The translations under genes were made by a program, and so were the position numbers. The notes under the pieces were generated by a model. The model did not search any database, had not been told where the DNA came from, and worked only from the letters and a program-made list of their open reading frames with translations. Positions 3,221 through 43,379 of a stretch of 64,000 nucleotides of DNA are shown in pieces. The DNA is from Alphaproteobacteria bacterium (GTDB taxonomy: Bacteria; Pseudomonadota; Alphaproteobacteria; UBA6615), in contig PBMH01000041.1 in assembly GCA_002722515.1 (NCBI GenBank), forward strand, positions 1 through 64,000, in the 5' to 3' direction. Every line of letters starts with the position of its first letter. The first letter of the stretch is position 1.

Positions 3221-4147
3221 TCAAACTTGTTTTGTATTCTCTTCCTCTCTTCGACTATTGGACAGGGTTGCCAGCGCGGTTCGTAGATTGCCATCGTGTG
3301 CTTCCAGCAGCGCAACGGCATCAGTCATTTTTTGACCGTGTGCGACAAGAATCGCGGGCTTGACGGCGTTACCGCTTGCGTTGAGAGCAGCTCGGGCGGC
3401 GGCTTCATCGACGCCAGAAGCCGCCATGACGATCCGCGCAGCTCGGTCGTGAAGTTTTTGGCTCGAAGCAATAACATCGACCATCATCCCGCGATAAATC
3501 CGGTTGAGGCGGATCATGATCAGGGTTGATAGCAGGTTGAGCGTTACTTTCTGCGCAGTGCCCGCCGTCATGCGGGTCGATCCGCGGATCGGTTCCGGCC
3601 CGGAATCGAGAAGGATTGGGTATTCGGCCGCTGCTAGCAGAGGCGCATCGGGATTATTGGCAATCCCGATGCATATCGCGCCGGCCGTTCGGGCGGCCTC
3701 GCAAGCGCCAAGCGCATAGGGTGTGCTGCCGCTTGCAGACAGAGAAATGCAAATGTCTGCCGATCCGATCTTGATCGCCTTGGCGTCGCGTCCCGCCTGT
3801 GCAGCGTCGTCCTCTGCACCTTCCATCGTTTGGGTAAGGGCATTCGCGCCGCCGGCGATAAGGTAGCCTAGGCGAGCATGTGTCCAGCCGAATGTAGGAA
3901 CGAGTTCCACTCCGTCCTGTACTCCGAGGCGGATTGACGTACCCGCACCAGCGTAGATAATTCGTCCGTCCGAGTTTTTCTGTAGACGTGCGGCGGAGGC
4001 CTGTGCGGCAGCAGTCAGACAAGGTAACGCAGCGCGGACGGCAGCAAGGCCATCGTCCTGAGCATTGAGGATTAGCGTGGCTATCTCGGTGTCACTTCGG
4101 ATCTCGAGATCGCGATATATCTCTGCGAATTCTTCAGTTTTACGCAT
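3221..4147 (-). CDS. murQ: N-acetylmuramic acid 6-phosphate etherase (SIS domain)
   Basis: YAGAGTSIRLGVQDGVELVPTFG and AGGANALTQTMEGAEDD, in which both conserved Glu positions of the family are retained; SIS segment SLSASGSTPYALGAC. Confidence 0.88.
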   Translation of the reverse strand: MRKTEEFAEIYRDLEIRSDTEIATLILNAQDDGLAAVRAALPCLTAAAQASAARLQKNSDGRIIYAGAGTSIRLGVQDGVELVPTFGWTHARLGYLIAGGANALTQTMEGAEDDAAQAGRDAKAIKIGSADICISLSASGSTPYALGACEAARTAGAICIGIANNPDAPLLAAAEYPILLDSGPEPIRGSTRMTAGTAQKVTLNLLSTLIMIRLNRIYRGMMVDVIASSQKLHDRAARIVMAASGVDEAAARAALNASGNAVKPAILVAHGQKMTDAVALLEAHDGNLRTALATLSNSRREEENTKQV

Positions 4148-4285
4148 CTGTCACTTTGCCTGAGATCACGAATCCTCCATAGCATATGCGACCGCGTCGC
4201 TATTTCCTAAACATGGAGCTTGATAGCTAATGTAGAATAGGGGCTGGCGGTGGAACGACGCGGGAACGAACAACAGCGGTAGGCT

Positions 4286-5191
4286 ATGAGTGAGCGTTTG
4301 TATTGTTGCGTTGACGGCGGTGCCAGTAACACGCGGGTGGCATTGTTTGATGAAGCAGGTCACCGACTTGGCTTGACCGTGACGGGACCAACGAGCCTCA
4401 CCGTGCGCGGTACTGACGCATGGATAGAAATTCTTGCCGCCTTGGAAAATCTCTCTCGGGCGGTCGCGCTTGACGCTGCGTATCTATCTAGGACCCACTT
4501 CGGCATCGGTCTGGCTGGGGCCAACAATGGTGCGCAGCGTCAAAAATTTCTGGACGCAGCACCAGATAACTGTGCGCTACGGGTGTCGACGGATGCGTAT
4601 ATTGCAGCGCTTGCCGCCCATGGCGGTAGTCCTGGCGCGGTAATCATCATTGGGACCGGCAGCGTTGGTTACCGGATTGAGGCAGCGGGTCGTTGCCGGA
4701 TAGTCGGCGGTTGGGGATTCCCCATTGGAGACGAAGGTAGCGGCGCCTGGATCGGGCGGCGTGCGGTGGCGCAGATCGCGCAGATTGTTGACACCCGTTT
4801 TCGTAAGCGGGTCACGGATATGCACCGTGCGGTTATGGCCGTAACGGGCAATTCGCGCGACGTTTTGCTCGACTGGCTGCTCGCGGCTCCGCCAGCACGT
4901 TTCGCTGAGCTGGCGCCACTTGTCGTCGAGCATGCTGGGCGGGGCGATACGGCCGCACTCGAGATTGTTAGCGAGGCCGGACGGGAGATTGATGCTCTTG
5001 CTGACGCGCTGGACTCGAGTCGGCGTATACCCTTGGCACTTTCCGGTGGGCTTGCCGCGCCGCTGGACGCATTCCTGCCGGACCGCTTGCGAAGTTGGAT
5101 TCGAATGCCGCAGGAGGATCCGATAAGCGGCGCTCTGATGCTGGCCAGGGGGCGTGCGCCGGATGAAACAATCATGTTGCAGAACCGATGA
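4286..5191 (+). CDS. BadF/BadG/BcrA/BcrD-type ATPase, probable N-acetylglucosamine (amino sugar) kinase
   Basis: CVDGGASNTRVALFDEAG, GIGLAGANN, IIIGTGSVGYR, GWGFPIGDEGSGAWIGRRAV. Overlaps nagA by 4 nt (ATGA). Confidence 0.85.
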   Translation: MSERLYCCVDGGASNTRVALFDEAGHRLGLTVTGPTSLTVRGTDAWIEILAALENLSRAVALDAAYLSRTHFGIGLAGANNGAQRQKFLDAAPDNCALRVSTDAYIAALAAHGGSPGAVIIIGTGSVGYRIEAAGRCRIVGGWGFPIGDEGSGAWIGRRAVAQIAQIVDTRFRKRVTDMHRAVMAVTGNSRDVLLDWLLAAPPARFAELAPLVVEHAGRGDTAALEIVSEAGREIDALADALDSSRRIPLALSGGLAAPLDAFLPDRLRSWIRMPQEDPISGALMLARGRAPDETIMLQNR

Positions 5192-6285
5192 CCCAATCCG
5201 ATCGCAATGGTTGCATTTTAACCCCCGATGGCTGGGTCGAAGGGCGAATAGAATTTGACAGTCATGTCCTTGCCATTGTTGAGGACGAACCTAAGCGGGA
5301 TACGTCCTACATCATTCCCGGTTTTGTCGATCTACACGTGCCCGGTGGCGGTGGTGCCGATGTGATGCAGGGGGCTGATGCTGTGCGCACAACTGCCCGC
5401 CTCCACGCTAGACATGGCACAACGTCATTCCTTCCGGCCACGGTCACTGCGCCCGAGCAAGAACTCGTCGTCGCACTCACCAATATTGGCAAGGTACAAA
5501 CGGATCGGCGGCTCGGCGAAGCGCGGGTCCTCGGGGCTCATATGGAGGGGCCGTATATCAATGCAGCGCGGCTCGGTGCGCAGCCACCATTTGCTCGCAA
5601 GCCGGATCCAAGTTTCCTTGCGGCAGTTATCGGCGACGGCGTCGTAAAACTCGTCACCTTGGCCCCCGAGATTGAAGGTGGGCTTGATATGGTTCGACAG
5701 ATGACGGCGGCAGGCATCGTAGTCCAGATAGGTCATTCGGACGCCGACTATGAGACGGCTAATGCAGCTCTTAAAGCGGGTGCGCGTGGCTTTACGCATC
5801 TATTCAATGCAATGTCGGAGCTTCATCACCGTGCGCCTGGTGTTGTTGGCGCCGCTCTTGCACACGCGGAGTATGCTGCCATGATACCCGATGGAATTCA
5901 TGTGGCACCCGGTGCGATGAATGTGGCGTTGCGGGCGATCCCGAAGCTATTCTGTGTAACGGATGCGACGGCGGCGGCGGGCATGGACGACGGCGAGTAC
6001 CCACTCGGTGACCATATGGTTACTAAGCGGGGCGACAGGGTTGTCCTTGATGACGAGACCATCGCTGGTAGCACACTGACAATGGACCGGGCGCTGGCAA
6101 ACTTGATGGCGATGGGATTGTCGCTAGCTGAGGCGAGCGACCGATTGTCCGTTTATCCGGCTGACTTTATAGGGCTAGATGATCGCGGTCGTATCCAGCC
6201 TGGCGCCTGGGCCGACTTTGTTGTTCTGGATCCGGAACACAGGTTGGTCGAGGTTTTTGTCGAGGGTCAGCCCGTCTGCGCTTAA
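5188..6285 (+). CDS. nagA: N-acetylglucosamine-6-phosphate deacetylase
   Basis: IIPGFVDLHVPGGGGADVMQG, HMEGPYIN, GHSDADY, GFTHLFNAMSELHHRAPGVVGAAL, VTDATAAAGM. Confidence 0.92.
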   Translation: MTQSDRNGCILTPDGWVEGRIEFDSHVLAIVEDEPKRDTSYIIPGFVDLHVPGGGGADVMQGADAVRTTARLHARHGTTSFLPATVTAPEQELVVALTNIGKVQTDRRLGEARVLGAHMEGPYINAARLGAQPPFARKPDPSFLAAVIGDGVVKLVTLAPEIEGGLDMVRQMTAAGIVVQIGHSDADYETANAALKAGARGFTHLFNAMSELHHRAPGVVGAALAHAEYAAMIPDGIHVAPGAMNVALRAIPKLFCVTDATAAAGMDDGEYPLGDHMVTKRGDRVVLDDETIAGSTLTMDRALANLMAMGLSLAEASDRLSVYPADFIGLDDRGRIQPGAWADFVVLDPEHRLVEVFVEGQPVCA

Positions 6286-11973: not shown

Positions 11974-12687
11974 TCAGGCGAGGTCGATCACTTCACCGTG
12001 ACGTGTGCAGTTCGCTGATGCAAGCCCAACAAAAGTGCCGGTGATGTCGTCCGGAGCTTTGAGGGTTTCCGGATCCTCACCTGGGAATGCTGCGGCCCGC
12101 ATTCCCGTACGTGTTGGTCCTGGGTTTACAAGATTGACCCGCACGTTGGTCTCGGCCAGTTCGGCCGACCAGACATGCACGATGGTCTCGAGAGCAGCCT
12201 TCGTCACTGCATACGCTCCCCAGAAGGCACGCGGGTTTGTGGCGGCACCGCTGGTCACCATAATAGCGCGACCCGTGTCAGACCGGCGCAGAACTGGATC
12301 TAGAGTTCGAATCAGTCGCCAGTTCGCATGCACGTTGACGTCGAAGACATGATGCCAAGCCGTGGCGTCATAGTGGGTTAGCGGGGTTATGTCTCCAAGA
12401 GCACCAGCATTTCCCACCAGTATGTCTAGTTTGTCGAAACGTTCTAGAAGTGCTGGTCCAAGGGTGTCAATCCGCTCGAACTCCGTTAGGTCGCAGGGCA
12501 CCAGAGTAGACTGTCCACCTGCTGCCTTGATTGCGTCGTCGACCTCTTCGAGCCCGCCGACCGTGCGGGCTAACAGGACTACATGAGCGCCCTCTGTGGC
12601 GAACCTCTTGGCCACGGCTGCACCGATACCGCGCGAGGCACCAGTGATTAACGCGACACGTCCGGCGAGCGTACCTTTGTTCGACAT
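11974..12687 (-). CDS. SDR family NAD(P)-dependent oxidoreductase
   Basis: GRVALITGASRGIGAAVAKRFA, LVGNAGALGD, YAVTKAALE, NLVNPGPTRTGMR. Confidence 0.9.
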   Translation of the reverse strand: MSNKGTLAGRVALITGASRGIGAAVAKRFATEGAHVVLLARTVGGLEEVDDAIKAAGGQSTLVPCDLTEFERIDTLGPALLERFDKLDILVGNAGALGDITPLTHYDATAWHHVFDVNVHANWRLIRTLDPVLRRSDTGRAIMVTSGAATNPRAFWGAYAVTKAALETIVHVWSAELAETNVRVNLVNPGPTRTGMRAAAFPGEDPETLKAPDDITGTFVGLASANCTRHGEVIDLA

Positions 12688-12694
12688 CGCTTGG

Positions 12695-13249
12695 TTAGGC
12701 CAGTTCAGCTAGGAGCGACATTTGCGAAGTGTTGTTGGTGAGCGTGATTGGGTATTCACCGCTGAAGCAGGCATCGCAATATTGCGGCATGTCCGCGTCG
12801 CGGGTCTGTCCGCCCATGGCGCGGTAAAGGCCGTCCATGGAGGCATCGGCCAGGCTGTCAGCACCAATCAGTTTTTGGATTCCATCGACGTCATTTTTGG
12901 CAGCGGGAAGCTCCGAGGCTAGCGGGGTGTCTATACCGTAGAAGCAAGGGCTTTTGGTCGGTGGGCTGGCGATGCGAACATGCACCTCTGCAGCGCCGGC
13001 ATTGCGGACCATTTCTATGATCTTCTGCGAGGTGGTACCGCGCACGACGCTATCGTTAACTAGAATCACCCGCTTGCCGTCATAAAAAACGATATCGGCA
13101 GCTTCTTGGCGGCGATGTTGCAGCGCGTGCAGACCGAGTGCCGTGAAAGCGGCCGCGTCTTCAGTGCCTAACACGCCGAAGACACCGCATTCCTCATGAA
13201 ACTTGTCTGGGTTATCCTTAAACGGGTTCGTGGTGTGTGTATGAGTCAC
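12695..13249 (-). pseudogene. purF: Amidophosphoribosyltransferase remnant with large internal in-frame deletion
   Basis: Residues 1-47 match the PurF N-terminus (EECGVFGVLG...GLHALQHRRQEAA). The next residues match the C-terminal PRPP region (GKRVILVNDSVVRGTTSQKI...) through to the PurF C-terminus. 184 aa against about 480-500 aa for normal PurF. Located after cvpA as expected. Confidence 0.85.
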
Positions 13250-13911
13250 TGGTTCTGCCGTATCAAATCTTCGAGGCTGTCACGCTCGCGCTCGTTATAC
13301 CCTTCCTGGGTGCGTGGCGCAGACTTTTCGGGCGGGCGCGATAGTCGCTCTAGGGCTTTACTTGCGGCATCAAGATTGATGGCCCGGTCCTTTGCGCTCT
13401 TAAGTGTGGCGCCCGTCTCGCCGATGACGTCAGCCGGCAGGATTTCCTTCACCAGAAGCGCGCCCCGTTCCACTGCTGGGCGCGTCCGTGCCGCCTCCAC
13501 CCAGGGCGGCGGGTCATCCAGAAAGATGTCGCTCAGGAACAAGAACGCGACGGAGATAACGGCACTTGCGGTTGCCAGCCCCGCGAGTAGGCCGAGCGAG
13601 CGGTCGAGAGCATTGAGGCGGCCGGCCCGCACCCAGCCACTGAGTATATGGCTGAACAGGTGAAGCACGATCAGTGAGACGATGAAAAGAGCAGCACCTG
13701 CTGCGAGTTCGGCGAGCCATTCCGGCTGAATATAATTACTGGAAATTGGCGACACATAGACTAGCGCGTAGATCGTTGTCAGGCCGGCGCCGACCCACGA
13801 GGCGACAAAAAGTCCGCCTCGCACGAAGCCCGTAACGAGTCCGAAGAGCCCACCTAGAGAGATGATCGTCAGGACCACGATATCGAAAAAGCTGAAGCCG
13901 CCGAACTCCAT
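13246..13911 (-). CDS. cvpA: CvpA family membrane protein
   Basis: FSFFDIVVLTIISLGGLFGLVTGFVRGGLFVASWVGA, multiple TM segments, overlaps purF by 4 nt as in the usual cvpA-purF arrangement. Confidence 0.85.
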   Translation of the reverse strand: MEFGGFSFFDIVVLTIISLGGLFGLVTGFVRGGLFVASWVGAGLTTIYALVYVSPISSNYIQPEWLAELAAGAALFIVSLIVLHLFSHILSGWVRAGRLNALDRSLGLLAGLATASAVISVAFLFLSDIFLDDPPPWVEAARTRPAVERGALLVKEILPADVIGETGATLKSAKDRAINLDAASKALERLSRPPEKSAPRTQEGYNERERDSLEDLIRQNQ

Positions 13912-13914
13912 GGG

Positions 13915-15321
13915 TCAGGCGCTCACCATATCGCCACGCTGCGGCGTCGTTTCGAACCCGTCGAACACCTCGCGCAGCTTTTGGACCTCGGTGATTTTAA
14001 GGCTAGTTATGGCCCTTTTGCGGCTCTGTTGGCGCCCGGTGCTCAATGGCGGCGTGAGGGCGCATTTGAAGCCTAACTTCTCTGCTTCGCGAAGGCGGGC
14101 ATCGGCCTGCCCTACGCTACGGATCTCGCCGCCAAGGCCAATTTCGCCGAAAACTACTGTGCGCGGCGGCAGGGGTCGTTCCAAATGGGCGGACACTAGG
14201 GCCGCAGCTACGGCGAGATCTGCGGCTGGTTCGCCGACGCGCAGGCCGCCAGCCACGTTTAGATAGACGTCGTGGGAACCCAGGGTCATGCTGCAGCGAG
14301 TCTGGAGAACCGCTATTATCATCGCTAGCCGGCTTGAATCCCACCCCACAACTGCGCGCCGCGGGGATCCGGCTGGTGCCGGGGCCACCAACGCCTGGAT
14401 TTCTACCAGTAGCGGACGAGTTCCCTCGATGCCGGCGAACACTGCCGAGCCACTCGTCGTGTCGTTGTGGCCGGAGATAAACAGTCCCGAGGGATTTTCA
14501 ACCTCGGTCAGCCCGGCATCAGTCATTTCAAAGACGCCTATCTCGTCGGTGGCACCGAAGCGATTCTTGACTGCGCGAAGCAGGCGGAATTGGTTCGCCC
14601 GTTCACCCTCAAAATATAGAACTGTATCGACCATGTGCTCGAGTACGCGGGGGCCGGCTATTGCTCCTTCCTTGGTGACATGACCGACCAAGATTATCGT
14701 TACGCCGCGGCGCTTCGCTACCCGAATAAGTTCTTGGGCACAGGTTCGTACCTGGGCGACGGTACCCGGTGCTGAATCGAGATTGTCAGCATACATCGTC
14801 TGGATGGAATCGATGATGGCGACCTCGGCGCCACCGACCTTGTCGAGGGTAGCGAGAATGTCGCGAATATTTGTTGCTGAGGCTAGGTTGACCGGCGTGT
14901 TAGCAAGTTTTAGCCGGGAGGCGCGTAGGCGAATCTGGTCGACGGCCTCCTCGCCGGAAATATAAGCTACGGAAACTCCAGCGCAGGCTAGCATTGCGGC
15001 GGCTTGCAGCAGGAGCGTTGACTTGCCAATACCTGGATCACCACCAACGAGAAGCGCCGAGCCGGTGACTAGGCCGCCGCCACATACACGGTCGAACTCG
15101 GCCAAGCCCGTCATGCGCCGGGGCCGTTCTTCTGGTGCACCGTCTAGGGAGGTAAACGCGACGGGCTTGCCCCCCGCTTTGCTAACGCCCTTGGGGACGA
15201 TTATATCGTCCGACTCCTCTGCGATCGTGTTCCACTCGCCGCAGCTGTCGCATTTACCGCTCCACTTGCGGTGCACGGTGGCACAGGTCTTGCAGACGAA
15301 CTGATTTGTAACGCGCGCCAT
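13915..15321 (-). CDS. radA: DNA repair protein RadA/Sms
   Basis: Zn finger FVCKTCATVHRKWSGKCDSCGEWNT, Walker A GGDPGIGKSTLLLQ, KNRFG motif, Lon-like C-terminal domain. Start trimmed to MARVTNQFVC; the longer ORF in the track runs into mlaF. Confidence 0.95.
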   Translation of the reverse strand: MARVTNQFVCKTCATVHRKWSGKCDSCGEWNTIAEESDDIIVPKGVSKAGGKPVAFTSLDGAPEERPRRMTGLAEFDRVCGGGLVTGSALLVGGDPGIGKSTLLLQAAAMLACAGVSVAYISGEEAVDQIRLRASRLKLANTPVNLASATNIRDILATLDKVGGAEVAIIDSIQTMYADNLDSAPGTVAQVRTCAQELIRVAKRRGVTIILVGHVTKEGAIAGPRVLEHMVDTVLYFEGERANQFRLLRAVKNRFGATDEIGVFEMTDAGLTEVENPSGLFISGHNDTTSGSAVFAGIEGTRPLLVEIQALVAPAPAGSPRRAVVGWDSSRLAMIIAVLQTRCSMTLGSHDVYLNVAGGLRVGEPAADLAVAAALVSAHLERPLPPRTVVFGEIGLGGEIRSVGQADARLREAEKLGFKCALTPPLSTGRQQSRKRAITSLKITEVQKLREVFDGFETTPQRGDMVSA

Positions 15322-15323
15322 CG

Positions 15324-16106
15324 CTAGGTTGCGCCCTGCAACTGGATTGGCCCGATGGAACGTCCATTGATGAATTGGTCGACCATGTCGTTTCCGGAGT
15401 GATCGATATCGCCAACCGGACCGTGCCATACGATCCGACCTTGGTGGATCAAGGCAACATTGTCGGCGATTCGGCGTGCACTTGCCATGTCGTGTGTAAT
15501 GGTCAGCGCCGTGGCTCCAAGTTCATGTACGGATTTCAAGATTAAGTTGTCGATGACGCTACCCATTATCGGGTCGAGGCCCGTTGTCGGCTCATCGAAG
15601 AACAAGATTTCGGGCCGGGTCGCGATGGCCCGGGCGAGGCCCACACGTTTCTGCATACCGCCTGATAATTCAGCCGGTGCACGGTCGGCAATATCGTCAT
15701 CGAGACCGACGATGTTCATCGCGTCTAACGCTGCATCGCGGGCATCGCTGCGTACCATATTTCGGGCCTGTGTTAAGCCGAAGGCGACATTTTCCCAGAC
15801 TGGCAGACTATCGAAAAGAGCAGCGCCTTGGAACAGCATACCGAACTTTCGCGTAATCCGTTCGCGTCTGTCTGGTGACATACCGACCGTTTCGTCCCCA
15901 TCCACGCGGATGGATCCTGAATTCGGTTCTAGTAAGCCGATGATGCTCTTTATAAGAACGGATTTACCTGTTCCCGAGCCTCCAATTACGGCAAGCGATT
16001 TTCCGGCGGGTAGATCGAGATCGATTCCGCGCAGTACACGGTTCTCGCCGAAGGCCTTATGCAGCTCCCGGATCACAATTTTCGGGGTATCGCCGAGGCT
16101 GCTCAT
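15324..16106 (-). CDS. MlaF-like ABC transporter ATP-binding protein
   Basis: Walker A GGSGTGKSVLIKSI, signature LSGGMQKRVGLARAIA, Walker B EILFFDEPTTGLDPI; coupled to an MlaE permease. Confidence 0.9.
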   Translation of the reverse strand: MSSLGDTPKIVIRELHKAFGENRVLRGIDLDLPAGKSLAVIGGSGTGKSVLIKSIIGLLEPNSGSIRVDGDETVGMSPDRRERITRKFGMLFQGAALFDSLPVWENVAFGLTQARNMVRSDARDAALDAMNIVGLDDDIADRAPAELSGGMQKRVGLARAIATRPEILFFDEPTTGLDPIMGSVIDNLILKSVHELGATALTITHDMASARRIADNVALIHQGRIVWHGPVGDIDHSGNDMVDQFINGRSIGPIQLQGAT

Positions 16107-41661: not shown

Positions 41662-42315
41662 CTATTCTATTGCGGGATGGATTAGAGTAGCAGCGGTGGA
41701 CCCTGGCGCCTGGTCCTCAGCTCGCTCGCCGACTATCTTCACGCGGCCCTCCGCCAGCAATCGAATGGCGTAAGGGTAGCAGCGATGCTCAGCCGCGAGG
41801 ATCCGTGCGGCGAGGGTGTCTTCGTCGTCATCGGGCATCACGGGGACTGCCGCCTGGACCAGAACCGGGCCCGCATCCATCTCTGGGCGTACGATATGCA
41901 CTGTGCAACCGCTTAGACGAACGCCAGCCGCGATTGCTTGGGCATGCGCATCAATGCCTTTAAAGGCTGGCAACAACGAGGGATGGATGTTCACGACCCG
42001 GTCACGCCATGTCTCGACAAACCAGGTCGAAAGTAGGCGCATGAACCCGGCGAGGCAGACGAGTTCTACGTTCGCTGCCTTCAGTACAGCGTCGATCGCG
42101 CGGTCGAAGCTTTCTCGGTCTGGAAATTTGTCATGTTCTATGACAACCGTGTCGATCCCCGTCGCCTCTGCATGGGCGAGCCCGCGGGCGTCCAGTTTGT
42201 TTGACAGGACAAGATTGATTTCAGCAGGGAAGTCTTCAGCGGCACAGGCGTCAATCAGAGCTCTCAGATTTGAGCCCCGCCCTGAGATCAGGACGCCTAT
42301 TTTCAGTCGGTCCAT
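41662..42315 (-). CDS. purN: Phosphoribosylglycinamide formyltransferase
   Basis: [77 protein letters not shown]. Confidence 0.96.
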
Positions 42316-43379
42316 GACACCTCGCCAAGGGCCGTGTCTAGGTTTGCGAGCTCGATTTCGCTATCAAGTGATTCCGTGATAGTTCCGATGACCCTCGCAT
42401 TTTCGCCTGCCCTTGCAAATACTCCTATGAGTGACTCGGCGTCTTCCGCCGCTGTGACGGCAATCATACCGATGCCACAGTTAAATGTACGAGCCATCTC
42501 CGGCTCGTCGATGCCTCCCGCTTGGCGCATCCAGCCGAACACTGGTGGGGCTGTCCAGCATGTACCATCCAGCGACGCGCCGAGGCCATTGGGCAGTACA
42601 CGCGGGATGTTCTCTAGAAGTCCGCCGCCAGTAATGTGCGCGAAGCCCTTGAGTGCTGGGTGCTTCGCGGCTTCTAGGCAAGCCCTCACGTAGATCTTCG
42701 TAGGGGTGAGTAGAGACGCACCGAGCGTTAAGCTTGCATCAAATGGCGCGGCGGCGGCGAGGTCGCTGCCGGTGTACTCGACGATCTTCCGTACCAGGGA
42801 GTAGCCGTTTGAGTGCACGCCGCTGGACGCGAGTCCGATTACTGTATCACCCGAGGCAATCTGTCGGTCTGGGTTCGGCAGCCCTTTGCCGCGCTCGATA
42901 GCACCAACGGAAAAGCCCGCGAGATCGAACTCGCCACTTGCATAGAGCCCGGGCATCTCAGCCGTTTCGCCGCCGATTAAGGCGGAACCGGCCTGTTTGC
43001 AACCCTCTGCGATGCCCTTTACTACCGCGGCGGCAACCTCCTGATCGAGATCGGCGGTCGCGAAGTAGTCGAGAAAGAAGAGCGGTTCTGCGCCTTGTAC
43101 AACTAGGTCATTAACGCACATGGCGACGAGGTCGATGCCGAGCGTATCGAACTGCCTGGCCTCGAAGGCAAGCTTTAGCTTGGTTCCTACGCCGTCGGTC
43201 GCGGCGACGAGGACGGGGTCCTTGAAACCGGCTGCCTTGAGGTCGAAAAGAGCCCCGAAGCCGCCTAGCCCGTCTATCGAGCCGGCACGTTGTGTTGCCG
43301 CGGCAAGGGGCTTGATGGTTTCGACTAGGGCGTTGCCAGCGGCTATATCGACCCCGGCGTCTTTATAGGAAAGGCCCAG
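42303..43379 (-). CDS. purM: Phosphoribosylformylglycinamidine cyclo-ligase (N-terminus extended beyond the track ORF; probable CTG start)
   Basis: Upstream in-frame DNA translates [92 protein letters not shown], clearly PurM. No ATG/GTG/TTG precedes it in frame. Confidence 0.93.

Follow-up and report, generated by a model that had tools for sequence, protein, structure and literature searches.

The window analysed here, a stretch of 64,000 nucleotides from an alphaproteobacterial contig, belongs to a MAG (G000) that is 82.9% complete, consists of 58 contigs and has an estimated contamination of 1.45%. It carries a short reading frame of purF, an essential gene of purine synthesis, in a cluster with the gene order radA, cvpA, purF, SDR. 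The features of this locus are as follows:

11974..12687, minus strand: gene for an SDR-family oxidoreductase, native downstream neighbour of purF
12695..13249, minus strand: native purF remnant of 184 codons, with a GTG start overlapping the cvpA stop
12730..12742, minus strand: site of a second private in-frame deletion, five codons near the C-terminus
13031..13057, minus strand: NDSVVRGTT, an altered PRPP motif (D65N, I68V)
13070..13081, minus strand: deletion scar with a single repeat copy, GACGGCAAGCGG in the minus-strand reading, coding for DGKR
13094..13117, minus strand: HRRQEAAD in place of the invariant HRGQEAAG (G47R, G52D)
13246..13911, minus strand: cvpA, native upstream neighbour of purF
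13915..15429, minus strand: radA, native neighbour

The cvpA–purF order is also found at other alphaproteobacterial loci, and the SDR gene adjoining the remnant is under normal constraint.

The initial annotation had described the 184-aa frame as the two ends of PurF joined together with about 300 residues missing, and alignment to PurF confirmed this. In phmmer searches, residues 21 to ~54 of the remnant matched the start of the mature B. subtilis PurF and residues 55–174 matched B. subtilis residues 335–453. Only the ends of the B. subtilis protein (about 1–34 and 335–453) are covered, and the ~300 central residues are absent. Relative to the genes of the six congeners, the junction lacks exactly 900 bp, an in-frame loss of 300 codons. 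The remnant scores 130 bits against TIGR01134 (NCBIfam), below the curated whole-protein cut-off of 350 bits used here as the threshold for PurF membership. Neither the Ntn glutaminase domain nor the PRPP domain of the family is complete in it, and the invariant HRGQEAAG and DDS.VRGTT motifs of functional PurF are replaced by HRRQEAAD and NDSVVRGTT, both of which read as previously reported.

The two ends of the remnant were aligned separately for a site comparison with 80 PurF sequences. Positions changed by G47R, G52D and D65N are invariant in 80 of 80 PurFs, and S55F, L115P and Y135D fall at sites invariant in 11 relatives. In all, 11 sites invariant in these relatives carry a private change in the remnant, compared with 0–3 in each relative, an excess for which the longer remnant branch accounts in part. 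The five-codon deletion has turned LTDMNDTDN of the relatives into LTNN. The dN/dS comparison proposed earlier gave a higher value on the remnant branch (0.056 against a background of 0.035) in a two-rate codon model, and the difference was not significant (LRT 1.86). Such a result is expected if purF was functional for most of this branch; it fits recent loss and does not prove relaxation. In that case the absence of stop codons from the remnant, whose frame remains open after two indels, is not informative. Taken together, the changes show that constraint on the remnant has been lost, recently.

The 900 bp deletion is bounded by short direct repeats. Both breakpoints in the congeners carry GACGGCAAGCG or a close variant, coding in the same phase for DGKR (or NGKR, RGKR and similar). 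The string common to both breakpoints is 10 bp long in the congener gene L009, 12 bp in L010 and 11 bp in L013, and as much homology arose in no more than 3 of 100,000 random joins within these genes; in the remaining three congeners it is only 5–7 bp. One repeat copy is retained at the remnant junction, as in a short-homology deletion. Deletions between repeats shorter than ~30 bp are usually ascribed to replication slippage or short-homology illegitimate recombination (PMC2884548), and one of these processes, acting between the DGKR repeats, probably removed the 900 bp. The phase shared by the two repeats explains the open frame without any need for selection.

A functional purF elsewhere in the genome, which the initial annotation had offered as one possible implication, is predicted on another contig, C9:

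C9:2002-3450: second purF, intact, 482 aa
C9:3662-4771 (L118): FAD-dependent oxidoreductase gene adjoining the imported purF

The C9 protein scores 492 bits against the TIGR01134 cut-off of 350, and its HRGQEAAG and DDSIVRGTT motifs are normal. Each of the 23 other genomes in the family, the six congeners among them, encodes a single full-length native-type PurF, 60–64% identical to the C9 type; none of them has a C9-type PurF, and the G000 assembly has no intact purF of the native type.

The C9 purF lies between livF and groES in a patch of ~3.3 kb whose GC content is low, 0.38–0.49 in a contig of ~57% GC; the GC3 of purF is 0.37 against ~0.63–0.68 in native genes. The genes livF, groES and groEL are collinear between C9 and the congeners, and the C9 GroEL is 92–97% identical to full-length congener GroELs. 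The livF–groEL gap, however, measures 3,761 bp in G000 compared with ~560–930 bp in the congeners, which have only a short spacer at the site of the patch; the alignment of C9 to the congeners stops at 1743 and resumes near 5020. Judged by gene order and sequence identity, the contig outside the patch is native chromosome. No tRNA or long repeats were found at the borders of the patch.

In a quick LG+G4 tree of 80 rows, the C9 PurF is sister, with a support of 100, to the PurF of genome G126 (family f104), in a clade whose remaining members come from f19 and f50, so that it is placed among other families of alphaproteobacteria. Forcing it among the native PurFs of the family was rejected (249 log-likelihood units worse, p-AU 2e-7). 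By phylogeny and composition, the C9 PurF is foreign to G000. The neighbouring oxidoreductase resembles L-2-hydroxyglutarate oxidase, scoring below the cut-off of that family, and its relatives, ~50–52% identical, occur in only two other genomes of the family. A phage or plasmid was considered as the vector of the imported purF and rejected: the best matches in phages and viral contigs are only ~45–51% identical, and those on large alphaproteobacterial replicons, at 59–68% identity, identified no vector.

Beyond purF, purine synthesis looks to be present in the genome. The window contains two of them:

41662-42315: purN, intact
43377-43379, minus strand: apparent CTG start of purM

The earlier statement that both genes are intact holds for purN and for the length of purM, which is over its cut-off and has no stops; the start of purM needs qualification. 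There is no in-frame ATG, GTG or TTG at the expected start, and the CTG, with AGGAGA or GGGAGA upstream, stands at the same place in G000 and four congeners, which suggests a conserved CUG start codon. Standard ORF calling shortens purM by ~86 codons. Full-length purE/K genes are on contig C9, and purL, at a contig end, is at least partly encoded. Separately, a livF-like ABC ATPase match at G000:C47:37363-38016 contains an in-frame TAA and is possibly another decaying gene.

The genome thus holds a second purF ortholog with incongruent phylogeny (tree and AU test), in a compositionally anomalous patch at a site unoccupied in relatives, and the ancestral ortholog is inactivated in this lineage only. 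This pattern fits xenologous gene displacement as defined in PMC1274311, and we consider it very probable that such a displacement has been caught part-way, with the foreign purF in place and its native counterpart in decay following a slippage deletion. An ancestor of the species would have gained the foreign purF and the neighbouring oxidoreductase gene between livF and groES, which would have made the original copy in the radA-cvpA-purF-SDR cluster redundant. The resident gene would then have lost 900 bp through slippage or short-homology recombination between two direct repeats coding for DGKR, and the remnant, open yet apparently catalytically dead, would now be drifting toward loss. We infer this order of events, in which the middle of the native purF was most likely lost because an intact imported copy exists elsewhere in the genome and the C9 enzyme presumably supplies all PurF activity. 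The initial annotation gave neither the strand nor the five-codon loss, and it did not include the import of the replacement or slippage at the DGKR repeats.

Three other explanations, each raised at least in part by the initial annotation, were weighed against displacement. The 184-aa product might be kept for a new role, such as binding or regulating PurF, and its open frame, its intact start with the cvpA overlap, the low overall dN/dS of its branch and the retained C-terminal end of the phosphoribosyltransferase part would all suit such a protein. Nothing speaks for it positively, however: the short form occurs in only one of 24 family genomes, the motif glycines and the PRPP aspartate are gone, the frame needs no selection to stay open after a recent slippage deletion in phase, and the low dN/dS is dominated by a long functional past. 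We regard retention for a new role as very unlikely; the remnant is most likely an ordinary dead gene early in decay and not a new kind of protein.

Less likely still is an assembly error, in which the sequence was collapsed or wrongly joined at the DGKR repeats while the organism itself carries a complete native purF. With a direct repeat at the breakpoint, a short-read assembler could in principle err, but 10–12 bp is far below usual assembly word sizes. This explanation also finds no support because the remnant has its own damaging substitutions in the retained ends, a second deletion and breakpoints at natural short repeats, and because no intact native copy is found; the earlier argument from the motif substitutions against an artificial join is upheld. 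The genome also has an intact replacement PurF, as real loss would predict. Least likely of the three is that C9 is a binning contaminant or a chimera and the organism a purine auxotroph. The genome is a MAG with some estimated contamination and the purF patch deviates in GC, but the contig outside the patch matches the congeners in gene order and in GroEL, and two misjoins would have to be assumed for a chimera. Nor does auxotrophy find support, since the genome encodes PurF, PurM, PurN and PurE/K in full length and PurL at least in part.

The situation in G000 has a parallel in G126. The radA-cvpA-SDR cluster of that genome (L199, G126:C1, ~3919-5368) has no purF between cvpA and SDR, with a few ambiguous bases in the spacer, and its sole PurF, 80% identical to the C9 PurF, lies at a non-canonical site (L197); three other f104 members retain purF near radA. 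One PurF clade could have displaced resident purF genes at least twice, at different stages, a proposal to which we give slightly less than an even chance. Direct transfer between the G000 and G126 lineages is conceivable as well. If recurrent displacement is true, purF would be a core gene that is replaced again and again, and stages of its replacement can be seen.

When a foreign ortholog replaces a core biosynthetic gene, this is as a rule inferred only once the old gene has gone, and here one genome shows the donor-type gene, the insertion site and the decaying native copy together. In the literature searched, no previous account of such a purF displacement was found. We judge the finding to be real and ordinary in kind, its value being a readable intermediate. 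That an in-frame 'mini-gene' can arise without selection for the frame also calls for caution in annotating shortened core genes.

With PurF, amidophosphoribosyltransferase (TIGR01134; structures 1gph and 1ao0), the remnant shares homology at both of its ends; unlike PurF, it lacks ~300 central residues, has changed motif residues and falls short of the family cut-off. The deletion resembles those made by short-homology illegitimate recombination or slippage (PMC2884548) in having direct repeats of <30 bp and one copy left, and differs from the general case in that both repeats code in phase for one and the same peptide, leaving the frame open. As in xenologous displacement (PMC1274311), the genome has a foreign ortholog and is losing the native one; here, however, the dead native purF is still visible at its old site, and the transition stage can be read.
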